Assembly (NCBI GenBank): GCA_028279595.1
Contig: JANQNK010000019.1
Location: 1-64,000 of the forward strand
Origin: Thermoplasmatota archaeon
Lineage (GTDB): Archaea; Thermoplasmatota; JAKEGO01
Length of the DNA: 64,000 nt
Direction of reading: 5' to 3'
The notes beneath the pieces were generated by a model. It ran no database searches. It was given only the letters and a program-made list of their open reading frames with translations, and was not told where the DNA came from. Below are positions 7,343 through 45,098 of this stretch, one piece after another; the stretch's first letter is position 1; each line of letters opens with the position of its first letter. The translations under genes were made by a program, and so were the position numbers.

Positions 7343-7417
7343 GGGCCCGTAGGGTAGCTTGGCCGATCCTCGTGGCTTTGGGAGCCATGGACTCCGGTTC
7401 AAATCCGGGCGGGCCCA
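7343..7417 (+). tRNA. tRNA-Pro (anticodon TGG), host of the provirus attachment site
   Basis: 75-base gene. The acceptor stem is GGGCCCG/CGGGCCC with discriminator A. The anticodon arm GTGGC-TTTGGGA-GCCAT carries anticodon TGG in a normal U33 loop. The T arm TCCGG-TTCAAAT-CCGGG closes well. No intron and no encoded CCA. The last 18 bases (7400-7417) recur exactly at 21930-21947, so the gene's 3' end is the crossover site of the integrated element; integration left the tRNA intact. Confidence 0.95.
7400..7417 (+). repeat. attL core (tRNA-Pro 3' end)
   Basis: 18-base sequence CAAATCCGGGCGGGCCCA, identical to 21930-21947. It covers half of the T arm and the 3' acceptor strand, a standard target of archaeal tyrosine recombinases. 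Confidence 0.88.
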
Positions 7418-7425
7418 CTTCCTCT

Positions 7426-8418
7426 CTAGCGTCCGTTTTCGGCACTTTCAGAGACATTTCTGCCATTATCAATCACCTCGTTGTTTATATGAGATTGTTG
7501 GGGACCCAAAGACGACAAAGCATCAGTCACCTTTGCGAGCCCATTTTGAACGTCATCAAAGTTGATTCCAAGGTACCGAATCGTCGTTTCGGTATTGGAA
7601 TGACCTAGAGCATAACTCACTGTAGCAACGTTCTTCGTTTCGTCGTACATTAGACGACCGAAGGTTCTACGGAGATCATGAGCGCTGAAATCGAAACCAC
7701 ATCGTTTCGAGATTCGTTTAATAATCAAATCAATTGAAGATCGTTTGTAACCTTTCAACTGATTCTTAGACCGATAGATTATCAATTGACCAGAATCCTC
7801 AATACCCATTCCGGGATGAGTTGCTTCAATCAATTGTTTTTGAAGGTCTCGATATTGAAAATATATTTTGAATGTTTCCTTGGTCCAAGGATTAAAAGGA
7901 ATATCACGTTCTTTTCCATCACGGTATCCCTTACCGCGTACACGAATACGATTCCTGTTCATATCGATGTCGTCGATACGAAGTCGAAGAACATCAACAC
8001 GACGAAGTCCTAGAAGAACCATAAGGTGAACTACCATACGTTCAGTTGGAACTTGTGATTCTCTAAGTAAGGTTTTAACTTGGGGTGTTGTCAACCATCG
8101 ACCAACATGTTGATGTTTCGGAATCAGTATCTTATATTTTTGAAGTACATCATTTCCAAGGAACTTCAAATAGATCTTCAAAACGCGATGATGCCAATTC
8201 ACACGGCCGTGCGCATCAAGAACAGCACCAACATCTTCAATGGTCCATGATTGTGGTAATGATAAGTTTAGTTTGTCTGAAGCTTCAAGCAATCGATGAA
8301 TTACAGTTTCATATTCGTGTATTGTTGTCTCGGCAACTCCCTTTGCGCGTAGCTCTCGTTGCCACCGTTCTACATCGCTCCAACCCGACAGATTCATTGG
8401 GACCACTTCAACGGGCAT
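7426..8418 (-). CDS. Provirus integrase, tyrosine recombinase (XerC/D-like)
   Basis: Site-specific recombinase of 330 residues that integrates and excises the element at tRNA-Pro. An N-terminal SAM-like core-binding domain (about 10-95) precedes the catalytic domain. Catalytic set: Arg139 in LGLRRVDVL, Lys163 in RGKGYRDG, His247 and Arg250 in HDLRR, His273 in LGHSN and Tyr282 in RYLGI; nothing is missing. The stop lies 8 bases outside the attL core, the usual position for archaeal integrases of the non-split kind, so integration does not break the gene. It diverges from the ribbon-helix-helix gene across a 104-base promoter region. Confidence 0.95.
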   Translation of the reverse strand: MPVEVVPMNLSGWSDVERWQRELRAKGVAETTIHEYETVIHRLLEASDKLNLSLPQSWTIEDVGAVLDAHGRVNWHHRVLKIYLKFLGNDVLQKYKILIPKHQHVGRWLTTPQVKTLLRESQVPTERMVVHLMVLLGLRRVDVLRLRIDDIDMNRNRIRVRGKGYRDGKERDIPFNPWTKETFKIYFQYRDLQKQLIEATHPGMGIEDSGQLIIYRSKNQLKGYKRSSIDLIIKRISKRCGFDFSAHDLRRTFGRLMYDETKNVATVSYALGHSNTETTIRYLGINFDDVQNGLAKVTDALSSLGPQQSHINNEVIDNGRNVSESAENGR

Positions 8419-9397: not shown

Positions 9398-9508
9398 TAA
9401 TCAACTCCATCTTACATTCAAACATATATTCACAGCTTTAAATAACAAGCAAATCCCGTCTAATTCAAATATTCAATTCAGGTACCTCGAGGACTCCTTT
9501 AAATTATA

Positions 9509-9667: not shown

Positions 9668-9758
9668 CAGTTCACGAAGCGTCAATGAGAATTGGTCATA
9701 TCTCGATTATGACCTTTTTTTTACGCACGTTTTTACTAGTTGAGGAAATCAGTCAATT

Positions 9759-9923: not shown

Positions 9924-9930
9924 ACAATAT

Positions 9931-10218: not shown

Positions 10219-10222
10219 TCAA

Positions 10223-10411
10223 TCAAGACCAGGAGGCGCTATTGATATATCTAATTCCTAACCATTTCTTTACGAAGTCGATTGGTTCGCTCAAAATCAC
10301 AATTATGCAAAATCCTTGATCTCGATCCTTTCCTTGCTTGATAGAAATTGAACGTGAGATCTCGAACCATTCAAGTGGCCTTCTCAAATTCATAACCAAA
10401 GTGACGCACAT
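10223..10411 (-). CDS. Possible small protein (62 aa), weak support
   Basis: 62-residue open frame read leftward, ending 4 bases before the start of the 95-residue gene. It has mixed hydrophobic and basic residues (FCIIVILSEPIDFVKKWLG) and no recognised motif. The tight spacing with its neighbour is the main support; it could be an untranslated leader instead. Confidence 0.35.
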   Translation of the reverse strand: MCVTLVMNLRRPLEWFEISRSISIKQGKDRDQGFCIIVILSEPIDFVKKWLGIRYINSASWS

Positions 10412-10467
10412 TGCTAGATATGCGACATTCTTAAGTAAATGTCAACATTAGTACTCCTGGGATCAAC

Positions 10468-10680
10468 ATGCCAAAGGATCAAACTAAGTTTAAAGACATG
10501 ACAGGAAAACAAGCCTGGTTATTTGGAACAAGACTATATCTCGTGGGTATCGGCTCTGCGATTCTAGTAGGCGGGATCGTGCTTGGATTCATCCATGGAT
10601 TTACGCCGATAACTATTGGGCTCAACGTCACAATAGGATTGATTTCAATCGGATTGGGTATTATTTCAAAGGTAGATTAA
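10468..10680 (+). CDS. Small two-helix membrane protein (70 aa)
   Basis: 70-residue protein with a charged N-terminus followed by two transmembrane segments (about 21-43 and 46-66, Gly/Ile-rich). Such small two-helix proteins are typical envelope or coat components of lipid-containing and filamentous archaeal viruses, so a virion role is possible but unproven. Its stop is immediately followed by the ATG of the next gene (stop 10678-10680, start 10681), a tight operon. Confidence 0.65.
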   Translation: MPKDQTKFKDMTGKQAWLFGTRLYLVGIGSAILVGGIVLGFIHGFTPITIGLNVTIGLISIGLGIISKVD

Positions 10681-10896
10681 ATGACAAATGAATTATCGAC
10701 GGAAAGATGCCCAGAATGTTCAAACCATCTCGAAGACGGATACTTTGTAAAATCAGGTTATGCATTAGGTTGGTCAACTACACCTAAAGGATGGAAAGCG
10801 GAAGAACTTCTTTTCCACTTTTCTGCGCGACCTAAGAATAATTTCGTTAAGGCAAAACGATGCTCTACTTGTAGAATTCTCATAGTTCAATATTGA
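10681..10896 (+). CDS. DUF6487-like zinc-binding protein (71 aa)
   Basis: 71-residue protein with CPEC at residues 10-13 followed by a glycine-containing strand (DGYFVKSGYALGWS) and a CSTC pair near the end followed by ILIVQY. The pattern of CPxC, G-strand, W and a terminal CxxC-x-x-x-I-x-x-Y matches DUF6487 proteins, small zinc-binding proteins of unknown role common in bacteria and archaea. It lies directly after the two-helix membrane protein. Family match is by eye. Confidence 0.65.
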   Translation: MTNELSTERCPECSNHLEDGYFVKSGYALGWSTTPKGWKAEELLFHFSARPKNNFVKAKRCSTCRILIVQY

Positions 10897-10953
10897 TCTA
10901 ATTGTGTAACAATCTCCATAAGATATATTATGGCTATTATCATTCCAACGCAT

Positions 10954-11469
10954 ATGCAATTACTAAGCTGTGGGACCATTATCGTGTTATCAATCCTGAT
11001 CATCGGATGTGTTGATCCTACATCATACGATGAAACCGATCCTGGTTACATGTATCACGGAGCAAATTCTTCCGTTAATTTCACAAGTATTGGAGATACG
11101 AATTATCTTGAATACATTGACCAGTTTATCTCCGAGCTAAGTAAGAATATCACTGTAGAATTTGACTCAGACGTTAATATCGTTTGGATCCATGAATCTA
11201 ATCGGACAACATATATTCAAGGAGCTCTACACTATCATAACTATACGAATCATATTGAAAGTCGGATATTCGGCTACTATGTCGGTGGTGACCGATACAA
11301 ACCATACAATACAATGTCAAAATGTCAAGCGAATATTACGGAAGAATATTCTCAGGATCTATCGCTTCTTCGATACCATGTTCGTGTTATCCTGAACGGA
11401 ATTAAGGAAATCTATCATCATGATACGCAAATTGAGGATGAACAGTTTTGGAAAGTATTTACAGGATAA
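10954..11469 (+). CDS. Secreted lipoprotein-like hypothetical protein (provirus)
   Basis: About 171 residues. The N-terminus MQLLSCGTIIVLSILIIGC is a signal sequence ending in a lipobox-like IIGC, so the mature protein may be lipid-anchored outside the membrane. The rest is polar, with many Asn-x-Ser/Thr sites and Tyr, as in surface-exposed archaeal proteins. A TATA-like AGATATATT (10921-10929) lies about 27 bases before the ATG at 10954, favouring this start over the ATG at 10930. No homologous family recognised. Confidence 0.6.
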   Translation: MQLLSCGTIIVLSILIIGCVDPTSYDETDPGYMYHGANSSVNFTSIGDTNYLEYIDQFISELSKNITVEFDSDVNIVWIHESNRTTYIQGALHYHNYTNHIESRIFGYYVGGDRYKPYNTMSKCQANITEEYSQDLSLLRYHVRVILNGIKEIYHHDTQIEDEQFWKVFTG

Positions 11470-11557
11470 TCTCAATCAATTACATTTTGCTTAACCCAAC
11501 AACGTCAATTAATCGTTATGATGAATTATCAAGAAGTTGTTATTAGTATTAACAACT

Positions 11558-11794
11558 TTATTTCGAATATAGTTTACAGGATATTATTTTCATCCGTTCC
11601 TCATTTTCAGTTTTAACAGCCATAGTTGCCATTATACCTGCTGTTGATGCGAGAAATGACATTAAAATTAACAATAATAATCCTAGTTTACCATCACAAT
11701 CGTAGACATATGCAGAAATCATTCCAAAAATAAAAGAAACAAGTAATAATCCGCTGGTCAATAACCACATATATTGTGATAAATACCCAACCAT
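11558..11794 (-). CDS. Small two-helix membrane protein (78 aa)
   Basis: 78-residue protein with two hydrophobic helices (about 8-30 and 35-58) joined by a short polar turn (DCDGKLG), ending in a charged tail. Possible membrane component of the virion or an accessory membrane protein. A TATA-like stretch lies upstream near 11840. Second of several small membrane proteins in the provirus left arm. Confidence 0.55.
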   Translation of the reverse strand: MVGYLSQYMWLLTSGLLLVSFIFGMISAYVYDCDGKLGLLLLILMSFLASTAGIMATMAVKTENEERMKIISCKLYSK

Positions 11795-11861
11795 TAACTA
11801 ACACCCCAGTACTAGTCCTCACAAGCTAATATGAGAACTGTATATTTAATATTAACTAATA

Positions 11862-12071
11862 TTAACAATAATATTTCTTAGCAATAAACGGTGATACGAT
11901 CAATATTGCCCATCCAATCATTATTATAAATAAAAATAACGACCCACCAATCCATACTTCTAGTAATGCTCCAAGGATCATTACGACTAACCCGAGAATC
12001 AAAACAATTCCCGGAACTTGAAAAAGAATCGTAGTTATTGGTACTTTCTCCATCTTGTTTGCCTCTGCCAT
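11862..12071 (-). CDS. Small two-helix membrane protein (69 aa)
   Basis: 69-residue protein with a polar N-terminus (MAEANKMEKVP), two hydrophobic helices (about 11-34 and 40-62) and a short basic end (AKKYYC). It starts 1 base after the stop of the upstream 71-residue gene, so the two form an operon. Likely membrane or envelope protein; no family recognised. Confidence 0.6.
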   Translation of the reverse strand: MAEANKMEKVPITTILFQVPGIVLILGLVVMILGALLEVWIGGSLFLFIIMIGWAILIVSPFIAKKYYC

Positions 12072-12072
12072 T

Positions 12073-12288
12073 TCACACCACCGCCTTCTCCCAATTTATT
12101 ATTAGCTGAAAATTATATAAACCTGCCGGTGACATAACAACTTGCTGATCCTTCTGCTCTTTCTCTTCGCTTAAGGGATTAGCGGTCCTATACTGCCTAT
12201 CGATATTTAAGTTTGTAACGTTATAAATACTTATCGCCGATGATCGTTGATTATCATTCTCAATAAGACCATCTATCACACCTATCAT
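12073..12288 (-). CDS. Hypothetical soluble protein of the provirus (71 aa)
   Basis: 71-residue polar protein without recognised motifs; the C-terminal end is more hydrophobic (AGLYNFQLIINWEKAVV). Supported mainly by tight coupling to the two-helix membrane protein that follows it on the same strand. Function unknown. Confidence 0.5.
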   Translation of the reverse strand: MIGVIDGLIENDNQRSSAISIYNVTNLNIDRQYRTANPLSEEKEQKDQQVVMSPAGLYNFQLIINWEKAVV

Positions 12289-13003
12289 ATCTGAGCCCCC
12301 GCATTCGATAAATCCACATCACTAGATTATCTAGTTCTGCGAATCTCTAATCGAATCTTATCATCTATCAATTTACACCATATATAATTTATGTTCACAA
12401 GTATAAATTAATATCAATAATTCAACATTCCTTTAAACAACATCTCATTTTCACATATACATTCCCGTTTTAATAATTAATCGCCATTTTCTGAAATCAT
12501 TTTTTCCGTTATTTATTGTAAATTCAATTCTCGCCAAATAATTCTCAACCTCATTTCTCCAATATATTTGAGAGTTGGCCTGGGTTTTCTTAGATTTTCG
12601 ATTTACGATACATCTATTTCTCTCAACCTGCCGACCTTAAATTAGATTCATAGGGGGCCCCTGCGGGGCCCCAGGTCGGCCCCCTCCCCACGGAGGCCGA
12701 GAGGGGCACGGAGAATAGGGAGAAGAATGAGAAGAAGAATTGAAACCGCCCCTCTATTCGGCCTCCTAAAGGGTAGGGACTGAACTGCGTTTTAAAGGTT
12801 ACAGGAAACGGCATCAGAACAAAAATAGACGATAGTAAAGTGCGTCGTTTCACACGGTGAAACAACGCCACGTACTTGGATGCCTCTGATAGACCACTAA
12901 TATCCTCGAGAGCGACGGTAAAGATAGTATGTTACGCCGAGGATCACAATCCATGCGATGCATACAGGAGGATTTAATTCCATTATCAAAATCATTACAA
13001 CAC
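12289..13003. other. Non-coding provirus segment with GC-rich cruciform and two further hairpins
   Basis: No convincing gene. 12289-12620 is very AT-rich. At 12630-12680 composition flips: GCCGACCT (12630-12637) pairs with AGGTCGGC (12673-12680) around a second element in which GGGGCCCC occurs twice separated by TGC (12654-12661, 12665-12672). Next come GTTTCAC-ACG-GTGAAAC (12847-12863) and ATCCTCG (12902-12908) with CGAGGAT (12938-12944). The segment adjoins the 3' end of the possible Rep gene, so an origin of replication or packaging signal is a reasonable guess. Confidence 0.55.
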
Positions 13004-14254
13004 CTACGTATTTACTGCATCTGAGACTACTTTATCTCCAACAATGTTTCCAGATTTCTCGACTCTTACCTTTTTCAATTTCACTCCTTGTTTCTTCACT
13101 AACTCTGAATCAAGCTCATAGTAATACTGGCCACCAATTAATTTCGCTCTCATTAAATGTCTACTTCCATAGCTCCTATACTTATCTGGAACCTCATGTT
13201 TTTGTACGTATCCACGTCGACGCAAAGTATCCCAAAAACGAACCTCATCTTCATTCACGGCGCCAACCTTCAAGGCGATCTCAAGAAGATCATCGTTGAC
13301 ATCCGCACTACCATCGATGATGTCCTCGATTGGGAAACTCTCGTGGATAGGATTTACGAACTTGGTCCAAAGACTACCCTTGGTGTAAGCAGAATCGAAC
13401 ACCGTTCCAACCTGAGAACTGACCTTGCGTTTCTTGAAGTTGTCTCCTTCTATCATTATCTCGAAACGGATCCTGTCAAGTGCTTTAGCGTATATCTTAA
13501 CCTTGCCACGGTTGTTGAACATGGTACAGATGACGGAGTTAGATTGGAACCGTGGGTCTGAATGGACATTGACTGCGAAGCCTAACTTCGAGGCGAGGTC
13601 TACTCCTTGGTCATAGAAGAATTTGATTATCTCACGCATGACAGCTGTTGCGGTGTGGTCCTCGAAGATGTAGTCCTTGGCAACCTCTACGTGTTTGATG
13701 ACCATCTGTTCGTGGAGCCTTTGAACGTCCATGTATTCGGGGATCTCGAGGCCTACCTTCTCAAGACCGGTGACCATCATTCGATCAACGTCATACCATT
13801 TCGGTAAAGAGGCACGATTGTCATCCATTAACTTTTGTTCTGAAACGCCGGCCAAGTCAACATCAATGAAGTTGTCAGATTTCATCACAATCCGTTTGTA
13901 CCCGTCATAGTCAAGGTCCAGACCATAACCCGCTTTCTGATTGCGGATAGCATTACCCTGAATCCTTAGTTGACTGTTCTTCATCTGGTAGTATCCTTCA
14001 ACGCAAGGTTTTGCCTTCGATGTTGCTGCACCCCATCCATGACGTGCATAGTGCTTCCGGAGGACATCGGGTTGGTATCGGAATTTAGGTAATCCCGATC
14101 TTGACATTTGGTAGAATAGGTCAGAGTTCTTGGTCAAATATTCACGGAGGGCCTCAACGTACTCATCAAAGATGATATCGCCCTGGCGTACTGCTCGCGA
14201 GTAGCCAAGGACAATGACATTGTCTATCAAAGGAGGCGTTGAGGACCACTCCAT
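13004..14254 (-). CDS. Possible replication initiator (Rep_trans/Cri-like) of the provirus, tentative
   Basis: 416-residue soluble protein, last gene of the leftward operon. The segment GKVKIYAKALDRIRFEIMIEG resembles the K-x-Y-x-K...R-x-E signature of Rep_trans and phage Cri-type rolling-circle initiators, and an ID-V-DL-like strand (NFIDVDLAG) lies upstream; a clear HUH motif is not visible. The C-terminal part looks like a winged-helix region (ALKVGAVNEDEVRFWDTLRRRGYV). The hairpin-rich segment just downstream would suit an origin. Alternatives are a structural or regulatory protein. It starts 21 bases after the stop of the large surface protein gene. Confidence 0.45.
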   Translation of the reverse strand: MEWSSTPPLIDNVIVLGYSRAVRQGDIIFDEYVEALREYLTKNSDLFYQMSRSGLPKFRYQPDVLRKHYARHGWGAATSKAKPCVEGYYQMKNSQLRIQGNAIRNQKAGYGLDLDYDGYKRIVMKSDNFIDVDLAGVSEQKLMDDNRASLPKWYDVDRMMVTGLEKVGLEIPEYMDVQRLHEQMVIKHVEVAKDYIFEDHTATAVMREIIKFFYDQGVDLASKLGFAVNVHSDPRFQSNSVICTMFNNRGKVKIYAKALDRIRFEIMIEGDNFKKRKVSSQVGTVFDSAYTKGSLWTKFVNPIHESFPIEDIIDGSADVNDDLLEIALKVGAVNEDEVRFWDTLRRRGYVQKHEVPDKYRSYGSRHLMRAKLIGGQYYYELDSELVKKQGVKLKKVRVEKSGNIVGDKVVSDAVNT

Positions 14255-14274
14255 GTAGATGGTCCTCCGTCACA

Positions 14275-16773
14275 TTATCTTCGTTTTCTAGGTAGCAACA
14301 ACAACAGTATCAGAAGTCCTATGAACACATATAACAGGAAGTTACCTCCGAACATATTCTCCAAGGCAATGTCAACAGTTCCAGTTATCTCCTTAGAGAC
14401 GCCTTCGATGTTAGTCACTTGAACATCGACCTTCTCAGTACCAACGGTATATGGTATCTTGAGGGTCATCGTGATATTAACCGCTTTACCGCCGGCGACA
14501 AGGATCTCATTGTCAATGTCCTCAGTGGTAGTGTATTGGAGGTCAGTGTCAATCTCGACGAAGAACGTGTCCTGAGCGTTCCCGCGATTATAGATCATCA
14601 AGTTCATGACTTCAACATTACCTGGTGAAGCGTCGATGCGTTTTGGAATTAAATCGATGGCGAAACTGTATGCAGGAACGAAGTCATCGGAGGTCCAATT
14701 CTGGGCTTCTATCGAGACATTGTAATACGCATCTTCAGGGTCCTTCACCTGAACTGAGTAATTGCCCCAGTAATCAGTGGTCTGTTGATAGTTTCCGTCC
14801 TGGTCGAGAATAAACACTTCAACGAATGCTTGACGATTAGTTGTTCCAGTACCGATGAGAACTGCACCGTTGTCGTAGACGTACACAGTGGCGTTAGAAT
14901 CGCCATTATAACGCTCTCTGGTGTAGCCTTGAGCCGTGTTAGTGAAGAGGACGTAGTAGCTCGGAGTCAGTTGACCACCGTCTATGTTCTCTACGGGATC
15001 AAAAGCAAAGATTATCTCGTTGATAACAAACGAATCGAAGTTCGTGAGGATGATAGAGTTCTCTGATTCAGTGCCATCTGTTACAGGGGCCCGGAACTGT
15101 AATTTGTCATTGAAATCGTTATACGTCAATGCAACTTGACAAGAGTCTCCATCAGTGCCGGAACGACCGACAAAGGTCTGGTTCAGAGAACCATTCGGAG
15201 GCTCTTCCTGTGTAATGGGAGGAAAGTTCAGTTGGACAGGTATACGATCCCGTGAATACGCCCAATTCGATGTAGATGAATTGCTTGGAGGTACAGGGGC
15301 AGGACCTACCCAACATATCAACAAGAAAGTGCCGGAATAGGAACCTGGAGCTTGTGTTGATGGAATCGGTAGTTCGTCGACAGTGAACTTCTTGTTGTTA
15401 CCTGCTAGGATTGGGAATGGATCTAATGCACCGTGACCAAGACTGTCAAGATAATCGAAATTGACCTCCTCGTTCATGTATTCACAAAGTTTTGCATCTT
15501 CGAAACTGATTGGTGTACCAGGACCGAGCATCGGATTCATTGTTATTTCAATCGAATCAACGTCGTATGTTCCTTCATTCTTGATACGGACAGTATCTAC
15601 AGCATCATTATCCTGATCTGGAATCAGGGTTCCATAACCTAATTTCGTCTTCGCATTATTCGTTACTTTCTCTTTGTACTCCATTGTTAAAAGAAAGTCA
15701 GCACCGCTGGAATATTCTCCCTGGAAGATGTCAACGAGATTACTGTTCCCGTATGCATCATTCACTCCTTGCACTTCGACGTTACAATAGTAATCACCTT
15801 CTGGTTCAGTCGGATCAACATCCTTGATGACACCATCAAATAATAAAAATGCCAAAGGTGCTAGTGGTGTCACGGGAGTATAGGTACACGTAAACTTACC
15901 ATCTGACGCGGTATCATCTTCGATAGGAACAGGAGGTGCCGTAGGCACTATCTGAAAGTTCTGATCGACATAGATGATATCAGCATCCTTGACGAAGTTC
16001 GACACCTCGAAATTGATGTGGTCAATCACAACATTGCCAACGTTTGTTACCTTCAATTGATTGATAGTGGCAGAGGGGCCCTGGACAACTGCCGTTGGAA
16101 AGTTCCAATAGGTTGCCGCATCGGAGATCTCCACTGTTATCTGAACGTTCTCTGCAACATCACCGCCAGATTCACCCTGCGGAGGAGGATCATCACCTCG
16201 AGCTAGACCAACAAGGTTGAACATTTCGGGTTTGATATGCATCGATGCTAATGGCGTGTAGTATGCTGTGATTGTGAAGATGTTTGTCAAGTATCCACGC
16301 AATGAGGTTGAAACGTTCAGTAAGAACACACGGATACGAATCGAATCTCCCTTCTCAAGCGACAAACCACCGATCAGGATTGATTGTTCCGAGGCGTAAT
16401 AGCTCTTGTTGTTCAAGTTATGTGTGACCTTGAAACTGCCTTCTGTGAAGAAGGTCGCGAAATCTCCAGTCATGTCAGGGAATTCTACCAGAATAGTAGT
16501 GTATCGTCGTGATTCGTCGGTATTCTTCAGTTTGATTCGATTGTCAGACTTTACATTAACGATTTCTTCGGAACCGTTGTATGCATTACCCCAGTTCTGA
16601 GTAAATCGAAGCATGTCACTACCGTCAGAATACGTTAGAACAAGGCCTCCACCATCGGCCTTGACTAATCCAACTAGCTCGAGCAAGGGAGTGAATCCCA
16701 TAAGTACGATGACCCCAACAAGAGTCAACGCTACTATCTTCCTACTTGCGAATGTTCTTTTCATTAATCTCAC
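14275..16773 (-). CDS. Large membrane-anchored surface protein of the provirus (spike candidate)
   Basis: 832 residues. The N-terminus has a Lys/Arg-rich start and hydrophobic signal (residues about 10-38, ending VKADGG). The bulk is beta-rich with repeated Ig-like modules of the NEW3/CARDB type, for example GNVEVMNLMIYNRGNAQDTFFVEI near the C-terminus. A single C-terminal helix (FLLYVFIGLLILLLLL) followed by PRKRR anchors it with a short basic inner tail. This topology (signal, ectodomain, C-terminal anchor) is that of spike proteins of pleomorphic and spindle-shaped archaeal viruses. It follows the 305-residue lipoprotein-like gene by 2 bases. A spike role is inference from topology and operon context. 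Confidence 0.75.
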   Translation of the reverse strand: MRLMKRTFASRKIVALTLVGVIVLMGFTPLLELVGLVKADGGGLVLTYSDGSDMLRFTQNWGNAYNGSEEIVNVKSDNRIKLKNTDESRRYTTILVEFPDMTGDFATFFTEGSFKVTHNLNNKSYYASEQSILIGGLSLEKGDSIRIRVFLLNVSTSLRGYLTNIFTITAYYTPLASMHIKPEMFNLVGLARGDDPPPQGESGGDVAENVQITVEISDAATYWNFPTAVVQGPSATINQLKVTNVGNVVIDHINFEVSNFVKDADIIYVDQNFQIVPTAPPVPIEDDTASDGKFTCTYTPVTPLAPLAFLLFDGVIKDVDPTEPEGDYYCNVEVQGVNDAYGNSNLVDIFQGEYSSGADFLLTMEYKEKVTNNAKTKLGYGTLIPDQDNDAVDTVRIKNEGTYDVDSIEITMNPMLGPGTPISFEDAKLCEYMNEEVNFDYLDSLGHGALDPFPILAGNNKKFTVDELPIPSTQAPGSYSGTFLLICWVGPAPVPPSNSSTSNWAYSRDRIPVQLNFPPITQEEPPNGSLNQTFVGRSGTDGDSCQVALTYNDFNDKLQFRAPVTDGTESENSIILTNFDSFVINEIIFAFDPVENIDGGQLTPSYYVLFTNTAQGYTRERYNGDSNATVYVYDNGAVLIGTGTTNRQAFVEVFILDQDGNYQQTTDYWGNYSVQVKDPEDAYYNVSIEAQNWTSDDFVPAYSFAIDLIPKRIDASPGNVEVMNLMIYNRGNAQDTFFVEIDTDLQYTTTEDIDNEILVAGGKAVNITMTLKIPYTVGTEKVDVQVTNIEGVSKEITGTVDIALENMFGGNFLLYVFIGLLILLLLLPRKRR

Positions 16774-16775
16774 CT

Positions 16776-17693
16776 CTATCCGAGTAATCGATATTGATAC
16801 AGATCGACCTGGTCCTCATCGTCACCTTGTATTGGTGTATCCCAAGTCGGATACTTCGTTATCTCAGGTTTCGTGATCTTTGCCGTTGTACAAAGACGGA
16901 AATCCGGCAATCCGAACATTTGACTCAACCAACTCAAGTCGAGCCATGTCTTCGTGACTGCACGCATCTGTGTCCATTTCGCTTCTGCATTACCGTCATA
17001 ACCTTTCGCCTTTACATCAAGGTCAGAAGGATCCTCGAGTTCCTTCAATGGGATGAACAGCTCAACAGAATCATAGTAAACATCGTCTCCTTCATCGTAC
17101 ATATCTGGAACAGGGAAGCGAACGAAGAATATCATCGACCAAGACTGATGAGCGACAGTGTTGAAATCGCCAAGAGCACTCGCTTGTTCAACATGAATGT
17201 AAAATGGAAGAACAGTGTTCATACGGTCCCCAATATCTTCAAGGACGAACTCTCCACCATTCGTTATCGGTTTTGGTGTCTTTTCTGCTTCTGAAACGAA
17301 ATCGGTATTCAAGTCACCTATCACAGTTCCTGTGGTTTTCCGCTCTGCCTTGATGATCCTACCGTTAAGAATGTATTCTTCAGTCTTACCTACACGATTC
17401 CCGACCATTGCATCAAATTGATGACGGTAGATTACCGTAGGTTCAGGGGTATGATCATTGCCGATCTCTCCCCAGATCTTCCAATCTTGGACCTTAGCAG
17501 AACCTTCAGTTCTAATGTCCGATTCGACATGAACACTGAAAGGTATTCGGATTAACATACCGACTGCCCCTGCACTTTTCACCGGCCTACGGTCATCAAA
17601 AAGATTAGGGGGGCCATCTCCGCTGAGACAGCCCATCGATACGAATCCGTTGCTGACTACCAGCACAACTAAAGCCAATGCGGTTAGACGCAT
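16776..17693 (-). CDS. Lipoprotein-like secreted protein of the provirus (305 aa)
   Basis: 305 residues with a signal peptide ending in SMGC (Cys22), a lipobox that would place the protein on the outer face of the membrane. The mature part is beta-rich (IPFSVHVESDIRTEG, FYIHVEQASALGDF) with no recognised domain. It lies between the 282-residue membrane protein and the large surface protein in one operon, so it may be a virion or egress component. No homologue recognised. Confidence 0.65.
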   Translation of the reverse strand: MRLTALALVVLVVSNGFVSMGCLSGDGPPNLFDDRRPVKSAGAVGMLIRIPFSVHVESDIRTEGSAKVQDWKIWGEIGNDHTPEPTVIYRHQFDAMVGNRVGKTEEYILNGRIIKAERKTTGTVIGDLNTDFVSEAEKTPKPITNGGEFVLEDIGDRMNTVLPFYIHVEQASALGDFNTVAHQSWSMIFFVRFPVPDMYDEGDDVYYDSVELFIPLKELEDPSDLDVKAKGYDGNAEAKWTQMRAVTKTWLDLSWLSQMFGLPDFRLCTTAKITKPEITKYPTWDTPIQGDDEDQVDLYQYRLLG

Positions 17694-17738
17694 TTTCCGG
17701 CCTCCATTCGTATCTTACGTGTTGTCAGATGGTAGGGC

Positions 17739-18587
17739 TCAGAAACGTCTACGTCCTGACCCTCCTACTCCACGAGCAAGTGGTTTCCCAACGTACGATG
17801 CCAGGAAGAACACCACCATCACGCTAGCAATGATGAGTACCACAAGTATCAGTACTGCAGGGAGTACAAGCATTCCAAGGAACAATGCGCCAATCACCAC
17901 GATTCCGAGTACACCACTGACAAGAGGACTCAATCCAAGCAGGAATATCAGAACAACTCCGATAATGAGTCCGAATATCAGAGTGTAAAGGAGAGATCCG
18001 CCGAGGTAATCTGCGTTCAGGTCGAAGAGATATGGGCTATCGCTATCACCATCTCCCTGAACATCAACTGAGGTGTTACCCTTGACGTAGATGGCCTCGT
18101 TCTTGATGCCATCGCCCTTGATCTCATAGAAGCGCTTGTTCTCGACAAGGATCTCACTAATACCAGAATCGTCAGTAATTCCACGGTAGGTACAGTTACT
18201 GCCCTCGGCAGATACAATGAAATCCTCGACAGGATATCCATTCTCGTCCTCTACGTACACCGATAAGGTAACGTAGTCGTTGAGTGTGTAGGATTGGTTC
18301 TCATCAGTATAGATGATAGTAGAATCACCCTTACGATAGTCGATGAGTTTCCAAAGACCCTTGTCTAATTCGAATGATGCTTCATTCGTGGTCAAGGTCT
18401 TCGTTTTGTTCGTACTTCCTACACCATCATCCCAGTCGTAATCACGAACTGTGATTGGTCTATCAGCACCTGAACTATAGATGCTGACTGTGTGAGCTTC
18501 TGCGGTCACACTCGCCACGATCGACATGCAAAGCAATAGGGCAACGAGCCCTAGTCCAACAGCGTTCATTCGCTTCATATCTTTCAC
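17739..18587 (-). CDS. Signal-peptide protein with TTR-like domain and C-terminal membrane helices (282 aa)
   Basis: 282 residues starting at a GTG that overlaps the preceding stop (GTGA). A signal peptide (about 8-30) is followed by a beta domain like the carboxypeptidase regulatory/transthyretin fold (VTLSVYVEDENGYPVEDFIVSAEG, DDSGISEILVE). About four closely packed hydrophobic helices then fill residues 195-270, and the protein ends in GGSGRRRF. A membrane-embedded virion protein or assembly factor fits this layout. Function is inference from operon position. Confidence 0.68.
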   Translation of the reverse strand: MKDMKRMNAVGLGLVALLLCMSIVASVTAEAHTVSIYSSGADRPITVRDYDWDDGVGSTNKTKTLTTNEASFELDKGLWKLIDYRKGDSTIIYTDENQSYTLNDYVTLSVYVEDENGYPVEDFIVSAEGSNCTYRGITDDSGISEILVENKRFYEIKGDGIKNEAIYVKGNTSVDVQGDGDSDSPYLFDLNADYLGGSLLYTLIFGLIIGVVLIFLLGLSPLVSGVLGIVVIGALFLGMLVLPAVLILVVLIIASVMVVFFLASYVGKPLARGVGGSGRRRF

Positions 18588-18901
18588 GTCTCCATTTCAT
18601 CCAACGATATCGGTGCTGGAACCGTCCATACTACGGCAATGAATTCCTCAATCAACATCTGAAAAAAGAGACGAACATCATCTCCGGCGACGTCCACTCT
18701 TCTTGAAACGACGTTTCCGTCCCTTCCCTCGATAACGGCGCTTCTTCCGGTACGTTGTGGTCTTGGACTTCCATCTACCTGACTTCCCGGTGCCAGCTCG
18801 GAATCTGCCCCGAGGACCGTAGGGCTGACGGAACGAACCTCTGACTCGTGTACCCTTCCGCAGTCTCTTACTGCGAGTCTTTTTATACGCCAGGGTATCA
18901 C
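18584..18901 (-). CDS. Possible 105-aa frame overlapping the basic nucleoprotein frame
   Basis: Starts at a GTG that overlaps the stop of the upstream 58-residue gene (GTGA) and ends in a GTGA overlap with the next gene, so its ends fit translational coupling exactly. Its composition (Arg, Val, Ser, Gly, Asp without hydrophobic core) looks like a shadow of the strongly basic frame at 18678-18893. Perhaps only its start and its last about 25 codons (MLIEEFIAVVWT onward) are translated, or a frameshift joins it to the basic frame. Confidence 0.3.
   Translation of the reverse strand: MIPWRIKRLAVRDCGRVHESEVRSVSPTVLGADSELAPGSQVDGSPRPQRTGRSAVIEGRDGNVVSRRVDVAGDDVRLFFQMLIEEFIAVVWTVPAPISLDEMET
18678..18893 (-). 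CDS. Highly basic nucleoprotein-like frame (about 71 aa)
   Basis: Read leftward, this frame has about 30 Lys/Arg out of 71 residues and not one Asp or Glu (segments KKTRSKRLRKGTRVRG, TTTYRKKRRYRGKGRKRR, ending KKSGRRRR). That composition is what small DNA-condensing virion proteins show, as in the VP2 protein of spindle-shaped viruses. It has no ATG, GTG or TTG: either CTG at 18891-18893 is the start, close behind a strong GGGGTGAT ribosome site, or it is entered by a -1 shift from the GTG at 18901 at the run of five A. It lies in the middle of the provirus operon. Confidence 0.55.
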   Translation of the reverse strand: MAYKKTRSKRLRKGTRVRGSFRQPYGPRGRFRAGTGKSGRWKSKTTTYRKKRRYRGKGRKRRFKKSGRRRR

Positions 18902-19074
18902 CCCTTTAGGTTAAATTTTGCCATTTTTGGCAACATTCTCAGTGTTTTCCGTTTCCGGCGCCGTTCCATTCCATTCCGTAACCGCTCCAATAACAACTGA
19001 CGCAATGAGTCGAAGAATAATCGATATAATATGAAAGAAATAACAAACATAATCGCCCAATATTCGAATTTCAT
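18898..19074 (-). CDS. Small single-helix membrane protein with basic tail (58 aa)
   Basis: 58 residues read from ATG 19072-19074, which overlaps the preceding stop (ATGA). The first about 22 residues form a hydrophobic helix (MKFEYWAIMFVISFILYRLF); the rest is strongly basic (LRNGMERRRKRKTLRM). This is the layout of small coat or membrane-anchoring proteins that contact nucleic acid. Its own stop overlaps the next start as GTGA. Overlaps at both ends make it a credible gene despite its size. Confidence 0.62.
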   Translation of the reverse strand: MKFEYWAIMFVISFILYRLFFDSLRQLLLERLRNGMERRRKRKTLRMLPKMAKFNLKG

Positions 19075-19403
19075 GCCATACCACCATATACGGAGGCGTA
19101 GGCGTCCATCTTCGCTACGAGATCATCAAGAGCATCAATTCGAGCGAATACATCTGACCTCGAGATTGTGCGAACATTCGTGACAGAACGATAGATCTCA
19201 CTGAGTAGAGTCCTACGATAAGGATTCAAATCTTCTACTACCATATCAACAAGGCAGAGTGATGAAGCAAGGGCGTGAGCCCGTTCTTTCATTGCAGTAA
19301 GTTCGGGATCCATCACGCGATAACGGGACATCTCAACACGGGTTGCACGATATTTTCGAAATATTCGACGACGGTGTACAGCCGGATCCTTCATTTGTTT
19401 CAT
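19071..19403 (-). CDS. Hypothetical helical basic protein of the provirus operon (110 aa)
   Basis: 110 residues, mostly helical and basic in the first third (VHRRRIFRKYRATRVEMSRYR), with no membrane segment or recognised motif. Start overlaps the stop of the 211-residue gene by 4 bases (ATGA) and its stop overlaps the 58-residue gene start by 3 bases, so it belongs to the morphogenesis operon. Could be a scaffold or DNA-binding protein. Confidence 0.65.
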   Translation of the reverse strand: MKQMKDPAVHRRRIFRKYRATRVEMSRYRVMDPELTAMKERAHALASSLCLVDMVVEDLNPYRRTLLSEIYRSVTNVRTISRSDVFARIDALDDLVAKMDAYASVYGGMA

Positions 19404-20035
19404 GGAGTATCGGCCTCCCGGAATGCGCCTTTCTGCTGAGTAATATTGATACCTTTGATCAGTGAAGATGACGATTTAATTACACGCTCATGGTACTGAA
19501 CTTCCTTGTCAAGGTACTTGCCCATGATGTGAATCTTCGCTTGATCCACATTGGCGAATGTGATGCCACTATGATTGACATATTGAATAGGACGGACCAT
19601 CGCCTTTTCGTACAGGTGAGGGCCGAACTTGATGATTCCACCATTAACGGAACGTTCTGCGATCACTACGAAATTATTGGTTTTGTCGTTGTCAGAATAT
19701 ACAGCAGTCTCGACGGTCATTGCAAAACGCATTATGAAATTAATGCCGACCATTATAGACATGACCTGGCCGAAGGTGTACAACATATGGATCTCGTCCA
19801 TTGTAATCGGTTCGTATGGACCGTAGTAATGATGTTCCCGAATCATTCCTCGAGGAAGCATGTAATACTGAGCGAAGAGAAGTACAGCACCACAGAAAAT
19901 GAATGGCATCAGTGAGACGATAACTCGTTTTACCATCTCTTTTCTAAATGCCATGATGTACTCTGCATGTTCTTTGTCGAGGCGCTCTCGAGAGTCTTCA
20001 AAGCCAGGAGTCTCACCCTCGACGATGAAGAACAC
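19400..20035 (-). CDS. Two-helix membrane protein of the provirus operon (211 aa)
   Basis: 211 residues. A charged N-terminal region (about 1-35) is followed by a hydrophobic helix (VIVSLMPFIFCGAVLLFAQYY), an extracellular loop and a second helix (about 85-105), then a beta-rich C-terminal soluble domain of about 95 residues. It overlaps the ATPase gene by 23 bases. A membrane partner of the ATPase in assembly or DNA transfer would be consistent; no family recognised. Confidence 0.65.
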   Translation of the reverse strand: MFFIVEGETPGFEDSRERLDKEHAEYIMAFRKEMVKRVIVSLMPFIFCGAVLLFAQYYMLPRGMIREHHYYGPYEPITMDEIHMLYTFGQVMSIMVGINFIMRFAMTVETAVYSDNDKTNNFVVIAERSVNGGIIKFGPHLYEKAMVRPIQYVNHSGITFANVDQAKIHIMGKYLDKEVQYHERVIKSSSSLIKGINITQQKGAFREADTP

Positions 20036-20804
20036 CTCCTTTCAATTCGTGGACCGAGAACATATTCTGAAGGATGTCTCGACCCCATGCAGAACCTCGT
20101 AATGCGTAAGGAGACCGATGGCCCACTAGTAAGAAAACGATTCCTCGTTTCCTTCCCTGAAAAATTAGATTTGGGACCATGCTGTTCACGTCGTGACGCT
20201 CTAGACCCTCGGTCTCCTCGAGAACTACTATCGTCCCGAAACGATCTCGGTGAATCTCGTTGGAACGACGGATGAGTGAGGTGATAAGAAGCACTAATTG
20301 AAAGTGGCTATAGTCTGGGTGAGGGGTTATCCGAATCCGTGATTCTAGATTTAAAACCTTGATGATATCTTGACCGTTGAATAACGGGGAAAGCTTGTCA
20401 ATTGCACGGTTGAAAGCATCAGATTGGGTCTTTGACAGACCGTTCAAATCAAATGATTCTCCACGTAATCTAGGAACGAGATAATGCGTGTATTGTGCTT
20501 CAGTACGAAGAAGAGCTTGCACTAATTCTACGTTAACCATTGATCTAGGTAGTCCAACATTAACACGACGACCACGGTATTCGTTTTCATAGTCAAATAC
20601 AACAACACGATGAGGTGTCGAATTCAATAAATCTTGAACGTAACGGGTCTTTCCAGAAGCAACCTTTCCATATAAATAGTGAGCATAACCACGTTGTCCA
20701 CCAACTTCAATTTGTGATAATTCATTCAATACAAACTCAGGGAGTTGATTCAACCGAAAACCCCCTGAGAGGGACGCAGTATCCGGATGAAGGGGACCAC
20801 CCAA
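20013..20804 (-). CDS. HerA/FtsK-superfamily ATPase of the provirus (packaging or morphogenesis)
   Basis: 263-residue P-loop ATPase. Walker A GKVASGKT (about residues 46-53), Walker B IVVLEETEG (about 194-202), a sensor-like segment (FQGRKRGIVFLLVGHRS) of the kind seen in HerA/FtsK enzymes, where a polar residue after the hydrophobic strand contacts nucleotide, and a terminal GGV. Enzymes of this class pump DNA or drive assembly in membrane-containing and filamentous viruses (the pI/Zot group included). It is the first gene of the long leftward operon, whose TATA-like GGTTATATAC lies near 20945-20954. Superfamily is secure; exact role is inference. Confidence 0.75.
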   Translation of the reverse strand: MGGPLHPDTASLSGGFRLNQLPEFVLNELSQIEVGGQRGYAHYLYGKVASGKTRYVQDLLNSTPHRVVVFDYENEYRGRRVNVGLPRSMVNVELVQALLRTEAQYTHYLVPRLRGESFDLNGLSKTQSDAFNRAIDKLSPLFNGQDIIKVLNLESRIRITPHPDYSHFQLVLLITSLIRRSNEIHRDRFGTIVVLEETEGLERHDVNSMVPNLIFQGRKRGIVFLLVGHRSPYALRGSAWGRDILQNMFSVHELKGGVLHRRG

Positions 20805-20847
20805 ATAAAGTTTGCAAGTGCTCTGCGCCCCTCGTTGCTTGAAATAT

Positions 20848-21231
20848 GGAAGAGTCCGGCCTTGCGAATGTCGCCCTCACAAGGTGGAAATTCCCGGCAC
20901 TCTTCCAAAGAGAAAAACGATTTCAGTTTACTTAATAGTTGTGTGTATATAACCACACAGTTTGGGGGATACGCAGGGACCAATATTGGTATTCCGGATT
21001 TCAGGTGGCGGACGTATCCCCCGTTGTGGGCTTTTCGGAAGAGAACCCTTAGGGGTGACGATGCGTTTTTCCAATGGGTACAACAATCTATCTCTTCCGA
21101 TAAAGGAACGACATGGATTGACGTATATATACGTTTTAGAAAAAACCGGACAATCAAGGATGATGGCCTCCTTGAGTATAGGGGAGGATATTCGAAGGAT
21201 GGGACGCATCTTTCAAAATCATATCCTCCCC
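20848..21231. other. Hairpin-dense segment: four long inverted repeats in series
   Basis: Four large stem-loops in 384 bases. I: GGAAGAGTCCGG (20848-20859) with CCGGCACTCTTCC (20894-20906), one bulge, plus inner CCTTG/CAAGG. II: GGGGGATACG (20964-20973) with CGTATCCCCC (21013-21022). III: CGGAAGAGA with TCTCTTCCG (about 21036-21044 and 21091-21099). IV: GGGGAGGATAT (21181-21191) with ATATCCTCCCC (21221-21231). TATA elements lie between them (20943-20953 inside GTGTG...CACAC, and 21121-21134). Open frames crossing the segment are unconvincing. Likely replication origin, packaging signal or structured RNA. Confidence 0.6.
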
Positions 21232-21345
21232 GACGAACAAAGAACCTTGACGTTTTGGAACTCCAAGATACAATCCACATCTCGGGCAGTAATCGTGCGA
21301 TTCACAGTCCCTGAAACCACAACAAGGGCATAGAATGCAAGCCAC
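21154..21345 (-). CDS. Possible zinc-ribbon protein (63 aa)
   Basis: 63 residues from a GTG at 21343-21345. The first 24 residues carry CILCPCCGF and YCPRCGL, a compact zinc ribbon; the rest is polar without a motif and overlaps hairpin IV of the neighbouring segment. It would be transcribed in the same direction as the ATPase operon. The Cys pattern argues for a real protein, the structured DNA under it argues for caution. Confidence 0.45.
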   Translation of the reverse strand: MACILCPCCGFRDCESHDYCPRCGLYLGVPKRQGSLFVGEDMILKDASHPSNILPYTQGGHHP

Positions 21346-21374
21346 GAAACCACCAATAAAAATGGGGAGGGGGA

Positions 21375-21818
21375 TTACTCCCCCAGAGTTGCCCTCTCTG
21401 CCATTGTCTCCGCTGCGACTCGGACATCATCCAACGACATGACCGCCATCTCGTCGTAGGTCCGATTGTCGGTGCCCTTCCTCTTGTAGATATGAGCTAC
21501 AAAGAGATCCCCTGGCTCAAGGTTTCGCATAGCATCATGCTTGGCATAGCGCATATGATTCATCTCATAAACGCTATTCACCGGTTCACCCGGACGACCT
21601 CCGATGAACCAGATCTTCGCATCGGTCTGGGGAGTAGACTTCTTCTGTCCATCCTTCTCCCACTCACCAGTGCTGATCTCCTTCGAAAGGAGACAGGCAA
21701 AGTAGAACCCTACGTTGGGTGTTCCCATGTACATCGGGATGTCCGTAGGGATATCACCTACTTCCATACCAAAGAGTTCCGCTGCCGTTCCAATCACGTT
21801 TTCCGCTGCCGCTTCCAT
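21375..21818 (-). CDS. Hypothetical protein of the provirus (147 aa)
   Basis: 147 residues, soluble, alpha/beta, preceded by a good ribosome site (GGAGG) about 7 bases before the ATG. The central part (TDAKIWFIGGRPGEPVNSVYEM ... GDLFVAHIYKRKG) suggests an OB-like or small beta-barrel fold, so a single-strand DNA-binding protein is one possibility, but no family was recognised. Base composition is nearer the host than the left arm. It is the gene closest to attR. Confidence 0.65.
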   Translation of the reverse strand: MEAAAENVIGTAAELFGMEVGDIPTDIPMYMGTPNVGFYFACLLSKEISTGEWEKDGQKKSTPQTDAKIWFIGGRPGEPVNSVYEMNHMRYAKHDAMRNLEPGDLFVAHIYKRKGTDNRTYDEMAVMSLDDVRVAAETMAERATLGE

Positions 21819-21929
21819 ATTTTCATTCCTCCAATTATGCTGTCTGTCCTAACTCAGAAGGACCGTGATTCATGAACTCCTCAAGCACTCTGGCATACTC
21901 CGAAATGACCGCCTCAAAATCATTAGTCA

Positions 21930-21947
21930 CAAATCCGGGCGGGCCCA
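21930..21947 (+). repeat. attR core
   Basis: Exact copy of 7400-7417, the 3' end of tRNA-Pro(TGG). Bases on either side differ from attL, so the repeat ends are sharp. Confidence 0.88.
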
Positions 21948-22220
21948 TCGTTACTCATTGATCTATCATAGAAGATGGGCCCTTCCTCTCCTCGAAATAA
22001 TCCTAGATCCGATTAAAGCATTTCGAGGATCCGGGTATTCCAACTGATTATTCCAAGCGGGCCCACTCGCCCTCTCGTGGAACAGGTCTTCATTAAACTA
22101 ACATCATGTTCCACGATCCGGGAATAATGCGAGGCCGATCACTTCGGGCCCACTCGCCCTCTCGTGGAACAGGTCTTCAATAACCTAGCATCATATTCCA
22201 CGATCCGGGAATGTTAGGGG
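21941..22220 (+). repeat. Tandem hairpin array downstream of the original tRNA-Pro(TGG) end
   Basis: Chromosomal sequence that before integration directly followed the tRNA. It begins with hairpin GGGCCCATC (21941-21949) / GATGGGCCC (21974-21982), whose loop holds CTCATTGATC. Three units follow, each opening with GGGCCC: 21977-22058, 22059-22145 and 22146-22220. The last two share 34 identical leading bases. Each has a stem: CTCGAAAT/ATTTCGAG, TCGTGGAACA/TGTTCCACGA, TCGTGGAA/TTCCACGA, followed by GATCCGGG, which mimics the T-arm 3' half of the tRNA. No coding potential. Confidence 0.7.
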
Positions 22221-44523: not shown

Positions 44524-44684
44524 TGGGCCCGCTGAGACCCGGGCGCTTAAGACCTCATTGATCTAGAATTCTAACGCACGGGTAAGGCGGGGCTACGATT
44601 GTCAGAGTGCAAGAATTAGAGTGGGCTTGCCGAGACCGGACGCTTAAGACCTCATTGATCTCCCGTTATAACGTCCGGGCTAGA
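44524..44684 (-). repeat. Two shorter repeat units (C and D) distal to tRNA-Pro(GGG)
   Basis: Read leftward, unit C (44684-44622) has stem CCGGACG/CGTCCGG and unit D (44621-44524) has stem CCCGTGCG/CGCCCGGG with one mismatch. Both loops contain the identical GATCAATGAGGTCTTAAG, and both units end in a tRNA-3'-end-like GGGCCCAC or its decayed form AAGCCCAC. Stems differ in bases but keep pairing. No coding potential. Confidence 0.6.
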
Positions 44685-44814
44685 TGGCCCGTAGGGTCAT
44701 CGAGATTCGACCTAGATGAAGCTCCGCTTCATCAGGGTTTGTGAATGGTCGACATATCGAATACAGCATTCACAAACACTCTGTTGAAGAGCGACTTCTT
44801 ATCAAGGCGGGCCC
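44685..44814 (-). repeat. Structured tRNA-like unit A downstream of tRNA-Pro(GGG)
   Basis: 130 bases. Read leftward it starts GGGCCCG and ends GGTCGAATCTCG...CGGGCCA, so it resembles a tRNA with acceptor and a T-loop but no anticodon arm. In between are three hairpins: CGCTCT/AGAGTG; TTTGTGAATG/CATTCACAAA (perfect 10 bp); GATGAAGC-GGA-GCTTCATC. About the same as unit B but with different loops. Confidence 0.65.
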
Positions 44815-44847
44815 GTCGCTAATTAATTAATTAGGAGTGGGCCCGCC
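44806..44847. repeat. Spacer hairpin S2 between units A and B
   Basis: GGCGGGCCC (44806-44814) pairs with GGGCCCGCC (44839-44847); the AT-rich loop is related to that of spacer S1. Its arms are the ends of units A and B. Confidence 0.6.
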
Positions 44848-44960
44848 GAGATTCGACCTGGATGAAGCGGAGCTTCATCAGGGTTCGTGAATGATCGAGA
44901 ATTCAATTACTTCATTCACAAACACTCTGTTGGAGAGCGAGTTCTTATCAACGCGGGCCC
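44838..44960 (-). repeat. Structured tRNA-like unit B downstream of tRNA-Pro(GGG)
   Basis: 123 bases, read leftward: 5' GGGCCCG and 3' CGGGCCCA form a perfect seven-pair acceptor-like stem with discriminator A; AGGTCGAATCTCGG imitates the tRNA T arm. Hairpins: CGCTCT-CCAAC-AGAGTG; TTTGTGAATGA/TCATTCACGAA, where a U-G pair replaces the U-A of unit A; GATGAAGC-TCC-GCTTCATC, whose loop is the complement of unit A's GGA. The pattern indicates a selected RNA fold or an inverted mobile hairpin. Confidence 0.65.
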
Positions 44961-44992
44961 ATCGCTAACTCATTGATTCTGAGTGGGCCCGC
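44953..44992. repeat. Spacer hairpin S1 next to tRNA-Pro(GGG)
   Basis: GCGGGCCCA (44953-44961) pairs with TGGGCCCGC (44984-44992), the latter being the tRNA 3' end. The loop contains CTCATTGAT, also present in the hairpin after attR (21941-21982) and in units C and D. Confidence 0.6.
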
Positions 44993-45098
44993 GGAGATTC
45001 GAACTCCGGTATCCAGCTGTCCGTTTCATCGGAGGGAAGCGGCTCCCCTCTCTACGAACCCCGAGCTGGGAGGATGGACCAAGCTACCCTACGGGCCC
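44984..45098 (-). tRNA. tRNA-Pro (anticodon GGG, or CGG) with intron
   Basis: 115-base gene: acceptor GGGCCCG/CGGGCCC with discriminator A, D arm identical over 20 bases with tRNA-Pro(TGG), T arm CGGAG-TTCGAAT-CTCCG. The anticodon stem CCAGC/GCTGG encloses TCGGGG, then about 39 intron bases with their own stem GAGGG/CCCTC, then A38. In register with the other tRNA-Pro the anticodon is GGG with an unusual C33; shifting by one base gives CGG with U33 but breaks a stem pair. A TATA box lies at 45122-45132. Confidence 0.85.

Follow-up and report, generated by a model that had tools for sequence, protein, structure and literature searches.

In several families of one archaeal phylum, gene-less units of about 60-250 bases lie behind between about one third and two thirds of the tRNA genes examined. 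We consider it likely that these units form polar arrays of small non-coding mobile elements that target the 3′ ends of tRNA genes. In the window, that is, the whole stretch of 64,000 nucleotides analysed here, an intron-bearing tRNA-Pro(GGG) gene is followed by such units (Table 1). A sequence-only reading had described tandem repeated units with three hairpins behind this gene, and the description is confirmed, chance being excluded by controls in which own and swapped tRNAs were compared. Two 146-nt copies, at 44847-44992 and 44701-44846, are 85% alike, and both carry the hairpins hp1 (CTCT..AGAG), hp2 (GTTTGTGAATG../..CATTCAC.AAC) and hp3 (TGATGAAGC-NNN-GCTTCATC). In the unit next to the tRNA, a closing stem, TGGGCCCGCG..CGGGCCCA, can be seen clearly. 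Folding is better than that of shuffled sequences by 5.9 s.d. in unit 1 and by 3.1 s.d. in unit 2 (z -5.9 and -3.1). The finer points of the reading held as well: hp2 has T-G in the near unit and T-A in the next; the hp3 loop is TCC in the former and GGA in the latter; the shorter units C and D have different stems that nevertheless pair, around a shared inner loop AAGACCTCATTGATCT (a 44-nt repeat, 82%); and the GGGCCC spacer hairpin is the inverted repeat I3. It is only the end of the "130-nt" unit that has to be described in another way, since it is not a simply decayed copy as proposed. Its tRNA-end copy is cut after TCGAATCTC by the hairpin GATGACCCTACGGGCCATC, and the same junction is found at C2:27410. 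As to the tRNA-Pro(GGG) gene itself, ARAGORN labels it merely "tRNA-???"; it was missed as a standard tRNA both by ARAGORN and by the Rfam gathering scan of the window, and was recovered by whole-genome Infernal.

Table 1. Features at the two tRNA-Pro loci of the window
Feature	Position	Strand	Basis
Intron-bearing tRNA-Pro(GGG) gene; the units contain copies of its 3′ strand (P1)	44984..45098	-	Infernal RF00005, 39.2 bits; ARAGORN partial call
Spacer hairpin H0: tRNA end CGCGGGCCCA pairs with inverted copy TGGGCCCGCG over a 22-nt loop	44952..44993	-	Inverted repeat I3
Unit 1 (B of the sequence-only reading plus spacer), type 1: inverted end, hp1, hp2, hp3, direct tRNA-end copy TCGAATCTCGGCGGGCCCA	44838..44983	-	Repeat analysis, folding, match to type-1 model R1
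Unit 2 (A of the sequence-only reading plus spacer), type 1, 85% like unit 1; tRNA-end copy broken after TCGAATCTC	44702..44837	-	Repeat analysis, folding, R1
Hairpin GATGACCCTACGGGCCATC inside the tRNA-end copy of unit 2; junction recurs behind tRNA C2:27410	44683..44701	-	
Unit C, type 2: hairpin CCGGACGTTA..TTAAGCGTCCGG, then tRNA-end copy TCTCGGCAAGCCCA	44622..44682	-	Repeat analysis, folding
Unit D, type 2: hairpin with the inner loop of unit C, and tRNA-end copy TCTCAGCGGGCCCA	44524..44621	-	Repeat analysis, folding
tRNA-Pro(TGG), own units displaced by integrated element	7343..7417	+	
Integrated element, 14.5 kb, in tRNA-Pro(TGG)	7418-21947		
Tyrosine integrase gene of the 14.5-kb element	7426..8418	-	ORF; PF00589 match G000:C7:7564-8097
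attR: tRNA-Pro(TGG) 3′-end copy CAAATCCGGGCGGGCCCA at the far end of the element	21930..21947	+	
Three tandem type-2 units, Pro-type, directly behind attR, 14.5 kb from the tRNA	21948..22215	+	Matching units behind tRNA-Pro(TGG) orthologues in G001

How is a unit built? Going outward from the tRNA, the order is P1 (the real 3′ end of the tRNA), H0, P2, between one and three hairpins of the body, and P3. P3, with which each unit ends, is a direct copy of the 3′ strand of the unit's own tRNA; it starts at position 55-60, ends at 73/+1 and is 14-22 nt long. P2, an inverted copy that often extends into the T-arm (GGGATTCGAACCC), usually stands at the start of the unit. H0 straddles the tRNA end, its stem lying at 71..+9 in one class and at 65..+1 in another, and the geometry class of the tRNA-Pro(GGG) spacer recurs behind 21 of 53 tRNAs. 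Hairpins are thus present at the element ends, in the form of H0 and the right-hand hairpins. Bodies belong to several families. That of the three-hairpin units of the window is type 1; type 2 reads [stem]GTTA..CTTAAG[stem]; and type K/5, recognised by eye in the genomes G002 and G000, shows CGTCAAT twice, in the loop of H0 and in that of the right hairpin. In family f10, the sizes of units concentrate at 153-165 nt. Among perfect hairpins, those with a 3-nt loop are enriched (45 observed against 8 in shuffles) while those with a 4-nt loop hardly are (10 against 6). The commonest triloop type is C-GNA-G, and GNA triloops are unusually stable in DNA. Behind one tRNA of the window's genome (locus L210, G000:C3:47809), two reverse-oriented type-2 hairpins adjoin an inverted copy of the T-arm, as if inserted into that inverted copy.

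The regions downstream of all tRNAs found were read in the window's own genome (G000), in a genome of the same family (G001), in one of the same order (G002), in four genomes sampling family f10, and in other families. Direct copies that match the 3′ end of the respective tRNA over at least 12 nt lie within +40..+320 behind 14 of 41 tRNAs in G000, 7 of 20 in G001 and 10 of 28 in G002 (34-36%), and behind 15 of 25 in f10. In a larger f10 set, which overlaps the first, the own tRNA matches in 49 of 97 cases and swapped tRNAs in 2 of 2341, the rate over the f10 sets being 51-60%. The duplicated ends are therefore tRNA-specific: swapped tRNAs give 0-1% in this control, and inverted copies of at least 10 nt within +10..+120 are found for 15-54% of own tRNAs against 0-2% of swapped ones. 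Of these tRNAs, 0-4% have a match of at least 10 nt on their upstream side. Other families of the phylum gave 1 of 33 for the direct copy. In all, units related in architecture, whose presence behind tRNA genes of relatives the sequence-only reading had named among the touchstones of its claim, are seen in G000, in its two nearest relatives G001 and G002, and in families f10, f28 and f33. They are unevenly distributed over tRNAs. Among six f10 genomes there is none at His (0/5), Phe (0/3), Lys (0/3), Cys (0/2) and Asp (0/1), and they are near-universal at Gly (8/9), Ser (7/8), Tyr (4/4) and Ile (4/4).

The same bodies are met behind different tRNAs. A DNA search found the hp1-hp2-hp3 body also behind tRNA-Leu(TAG) of G000, and that unit ends in the tRNA-Leu end TCGAATCCCTCCCCCCGCACCA and starts with the inverse of TCGAATCCCTCCCCCCGCACCA. 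A search with the type-1 model R1 recovered 10 copies in G000, all behind tRNAs, and 7 in G001; over 390 genomes of the phylum it gave, beyond these two genomes, one chance match in a region without tRNA. The model is limited to G000 and G001 because bodies diverge faster than the architecture, and the distribution was therefore judged tRNA by tRNA. The pattern CCTGATGA..TCATC.AGGTC, scanned over genome and viral contigs, has L075 (same isolate as G001) as its sole real match; it is too loose, and the other matches examined were chance ones outside a tRNA context. Tighter pattern scans of viral contigs gave no matches. Similarity between the bodies at different tRNAs was seen in 123 pairs of units with the same orientation, and the 7 pairs of opposite orientation all involve a single locus between two convergent tRNAs; orientation relative to the tRNA is fixed. 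Type-1 bodies group by genome and not by orthologous tRNA: for tRNA-Pro(GGG), the unit of G001 is closer to the remaining units of its own genome (76-79% alike) than to the corresponding G000 units (62-64%). Unit ends follow the tRNA, and bodies follow the genome.

Whole units differ between close relatives, and they do so in a polar manner. Within f10, genomes of one genus were compared tRNA by tRNA where the flanks are conserved. Alignments of unit-free tRNA-His loci start at base 1, which is not so at many loci that bear units. In eight pairs, the sequence common to both genomes is displaced by 124-251 nt on the tRNA-proximal side, and the displacement coincides with the end of a complete unit within 1 nt in four of the eight and within 6 nt in two more. 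The cleanest filled and empty pair is at tRNA-Gln(ttg), where the tRNA is 100% identical between G020 (filled) and G075 (empty). The sequence is ..ggggcta|CCATATATTCTCC in G075 and ..ggggcta|[159 nt ending in CGAATCCGCCCGGGGCTA]CCATATATTCTCC in G020, that is, an insert of 159 nt flanked by an 18-nt duplication of positions 56-73. Similarly, G010 has two hairpins, 57 nt in all, inserted at position 59/60 of a tRNA-end copy; G050 lacks this insert and is 98% identical in the adjoining sequence. Filled and empty sites with target duplication, by which a mobile element is recognised, are thus at hand in both cases. The differences at tRNA-Met and tRNA-Gln(ctg) look like tandem duplication of a unit, and those at the Val(cac), Gly(tcc) and Ile pairs are more complex. 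Units turn over: at syntenic tRNAs they are often unrelated or absent. Some are orthologous between species, so that turnover is not always fast. In G001, a single metagenome-assembled genome (MAG), contigs C92 and C161 share a flank and have two units and one unit, respectively; copy number thus seems to vary within a population.

At the other tRNA-Pro locus of the window, units are found far from their tRNA. A 14.5-kb element with its own integrase has inserted between tRNA-Pro(TGG) and its older units. Since the element sits between them, these units are probably not needed beside that tRNA, although a second Pro(TGG) gene, C1:14162, has a unit of its own. The ORF at 8726-9397 of the element resembles, by eye, a TIR-domain protein, and further ORFs are membrane and ATPase-like ones.

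How could such arrays arise? Repeated insertion of a small non-coding mobile element at the end of a tRNA gene was one of two explanations that the sequence-only reading left side by side, and it is the one that finds support, in units at many tRNAs, duplication of the target end, gain and loss of whole units, and shared bodies. Non-coding DNA elements of about 60-250 bp would insert, always in the same orientation, beside the 3′ end of a tRNA gene. With every insertion, the 3′ strand of the T-stem and acceptor stem (55/60-73, 14-22 bp) would be duplicated, and the tRNA would therefore stay intact. New units would join at or near the tRNA-proximal side, and a polar array would result, much as CRISPR arrays grow at the leader end or as cassette arrays grow in integrons; units would also be lost and tandemly duplicated. 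Plain insertion with target duplication leaves unaccounted for the inverted copy that each unit has and that matches its own tRNA. The perfectly paired hairpins, many with DNA-type triloops, and this inverted copy may be read as folded single-stranded DNA by a recombinase acting in trans. Tentatively, one may go further and see here a new class of gene-less mobile DNA, in which specificity would come from the carried direct and inverted copies of the tRNA 3′ end and be reset at each tRNA, a recombinase not described so far would act on folded single-stranded DNA, and tRNAs would anchor chronological arrays of insertions.

Which enzyme could be responsible? No Y1 transposase, Cas1, tyrosine recombinase or reverse transcriptase is common to all the carriers searched, which are incomplete MAGs (54-95% complete), and searches for these four protein families in them gave no autonomous partner sharing the unit ends. 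Y1 transposase (PF01797) was found in none of G000, G001, G010, G020, G028 and G035, and once in G002. Cas1 (PF01867) was absent from G000, G001, G002, G010 and G020 and present, among the carriers searched, only in G028 and G035 (genomes 73-95% complete). Reverse transcriptase occurs in three of the carriers searched. Tyrosine recombinases are scattered, with seven in G000, several of them beside tRNAs, one in G002 and none detected in G001. It is possible to regard the units as cassettes of, or scars left by, a tyrosine recombinase whose substrate is folded single-stranded DNA, in the style of integron attC sites or of the CTX phage, with the tRNA 3′ end as its att site. P2 and P3 reproduce the target as a hairpin stem, orientation is fixed, insertion is beside an att-like site, and structure is kept while sequence varies, as in attC sites (PMC2727003). 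The seven recombinases of G000 would fit too, but the scarcity of such enzymes in G001 and G002 does not; a single integrase would have to serve tRNAs with differing ends, and the units have no cassette genes. We hold this explanation to be unlikely, though it deserves to be kept in mind.

Are the units perhaps RNA rather than DNA elements? They would then be structured tRNA trailers, or a family of non-coding RNAs, cotranscribed with the tRNA and processed like it, and selection for RNA pairing would keep P2 and P3 matching the tRNA. The strong folding of the Pro units, the covariation of hairpin stems, the compensatory changes in H0 stems across the tRNA end, and unit ends that track the tRNA between the tRNA-Asn genes of G020 and G071 can all be cited in its favour. 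It is to be noted, however, that folding energy has no strand bias. The sense strand folds better in 25 of 53 and 22 of 40 units, against 134 of 157 and 89 of 97 tRNA controls, and the mean of sense minus antisense energy is -0.29 and -0.46 kcal/mol for units and -3.25 and -3.88 for tRNAs. RNA helices usually change through G-U, whereas compensatory changes here come without such steps: stems of the type-1 alignment have two-sided changes in 34 cells and one-sided changes in 3. Single mismatches number G.T 14 and A.C 3 in f10 stems, and 12 and 11 in the first set; the excess of G.T in f10 leans to the sense strand, and a minor RNA role is for this reason conceivable. A low-threshold Rfam search of the units yielded no family above threshold (best E 0.35). 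There are many tRNAs without a unit, units at syntenic tRNAs are unrelated or missing, one set of units is 14.5 kb away from the tRNA it belongs to, and T-runs right behind several f10 tRNAs would stop transcription ahead of the unit. On these grounds the RNA explanation, the other of the two in the sequence-only reading, is improbable, and the case gives a caution that sequence downstream of tRNAs may be structured and covary without being RNA.

Another explanation does without any mobile element. Template switching during replication or repair at hairpin-prone tRNA genes would make the direct-inverted-direct copies, and hairpin-templated correction would keep them paired. The order of the copies, the correction of arms without strand bias, the tandem duplications at Met and Gln(ctg), and the lack of an enzyme among the families searched agree with it. 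It does not explain, however, why defined body families in one orientation are common to tRNAs and genomes, why f10 units cluster in size, why single-unit insertions are clean, and why units are nearly absent from other genomes of the phylum in spite of similar tRNAs. We think that it has little chance of being right.

A casposase-like integrase of the Cas1 family, inserting units as in casposons and CRISPR adaptation, is still harder to believe: casposases do target tRNA 3′ ends with a target duplication of 14-15 bp (PMC6614799, PMC6977970), that of Aciduliprofundum boonei reads the T-loop motif TCAAATC (PMC6614799), and array growth is polar as in CRISPR, but the casposon duplication consists of the last 4 nt of the tRNA and 10 nt beyond (PMC6977970) and not of 55/60 to 73/+1, Cas1 is missing in most of the carriers searched, as listed above, and there are no common terminal inverted repeats except the tRNA-derived ends. 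A single old insertion with a decaying tRNA-end copy was rejected, as the copies stay near-identical while the bodies differ, and P2 as a primer-binding site of a retroelement was dropped for want of a reverse transcriptase common to the carriers searched.

Even so, casposases are the nearest biochemical precedent for the insertion of mobile elements proposed here. The tRNA-targeting casposons of family 2 are found at tRNA-Pro of A. boonei and tRNA-Leu of Methanosarcina mazei; like our units they insert site-specifically at the tRNA 3′ end and duplicate a short target, which the casposase reads via the T-loop (PMC6614799, PMC6977970). Casposons are, however, kilobases in size, have genes and terminal inverted repeats, and make a duplication mostly outside the tRNA, while the units have 60-250 bp and no genes, duplicate 55/60-73, and live in G000-G002 without Cas1. 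CRISPR arrays and integron cassette arrays are similar in their polar addition at an anchor site whose end is duplicated each time, and integron attC sites are recognised by structure (PMC2727003). In our case, in contrast, the anchor is a tRNA gene, the bodies are related hairpins and not foreign spacers or genes, and neither Cas1 in G000-G002 nor an IntI was identified. MITEs and the non-autonomous elements of IS200/IS605 (REP/PATE) are small, non-coding, hairpin-ended and spread through the genome in copies as well; the units differ in being found so far only behind tRNAs, with duplication of the target end, and without Y1 transposase in G000, G001 and the four f10 genomes searched. Genomic islands of tyrosine recombinases duplicate the tRNA 3′ end at their far side, as the element at 7418-21947 of the window does, but that island has an integrase and other genes and one target tRNA, whereas the gene-less units occur at many different tRNAs. 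In Methanopyrus kandleri, a palindrome CGTTA(N)9TAACG lies about 10 bp downstream of half of the tRNA genes, likewise at a fixed place behind many archaeal tRNAs; it is short and conserved, and the accessible part of that report mentions no copies of the own tRNA end and no arrays (PMC5217627). No description of a system like ours was found in the open literature, subscription papers lying outside the search.

The 3′ ends of tRNA genes are classic docking sites of genomic islands, of casposons, and perhaps of the ancestors of CRISPR arrays. A lineage-wide, very small and gene-less system that docks at many tRNAs and adds its units beside the tRNA would leave insertion arrays that can be read. 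It poses a testable question: which enzyme makes direct-inverted-direct copies at tRNA ends? The arrays also offer markers for strain typing of uncultured archaea.

Some further observations concern the range of such sequences. In G001, another repeat family, CTTTTTCGAACATCGG..GATGTGAGAAAAAG.., is found behind several tRNAs without an obvious tRNA-end copy (L005:100-260; tRNA ends on C35, C20, C110 and C124). At a tRNA-Met of G003 (L285), a hairpin segment of 51 nt is flanked on either side by a perfect 25-nt copy of the tRNA 3′ end. The family is otherwise free of units, and this may be an independent or minimal case. Finally, the motif TTACGTCAAT at the unit start recurs in the distant families f2 and f28 (L355 of G054, f28, and units of G002), and its recurrence suggests that the units of both may go back to one old element family.
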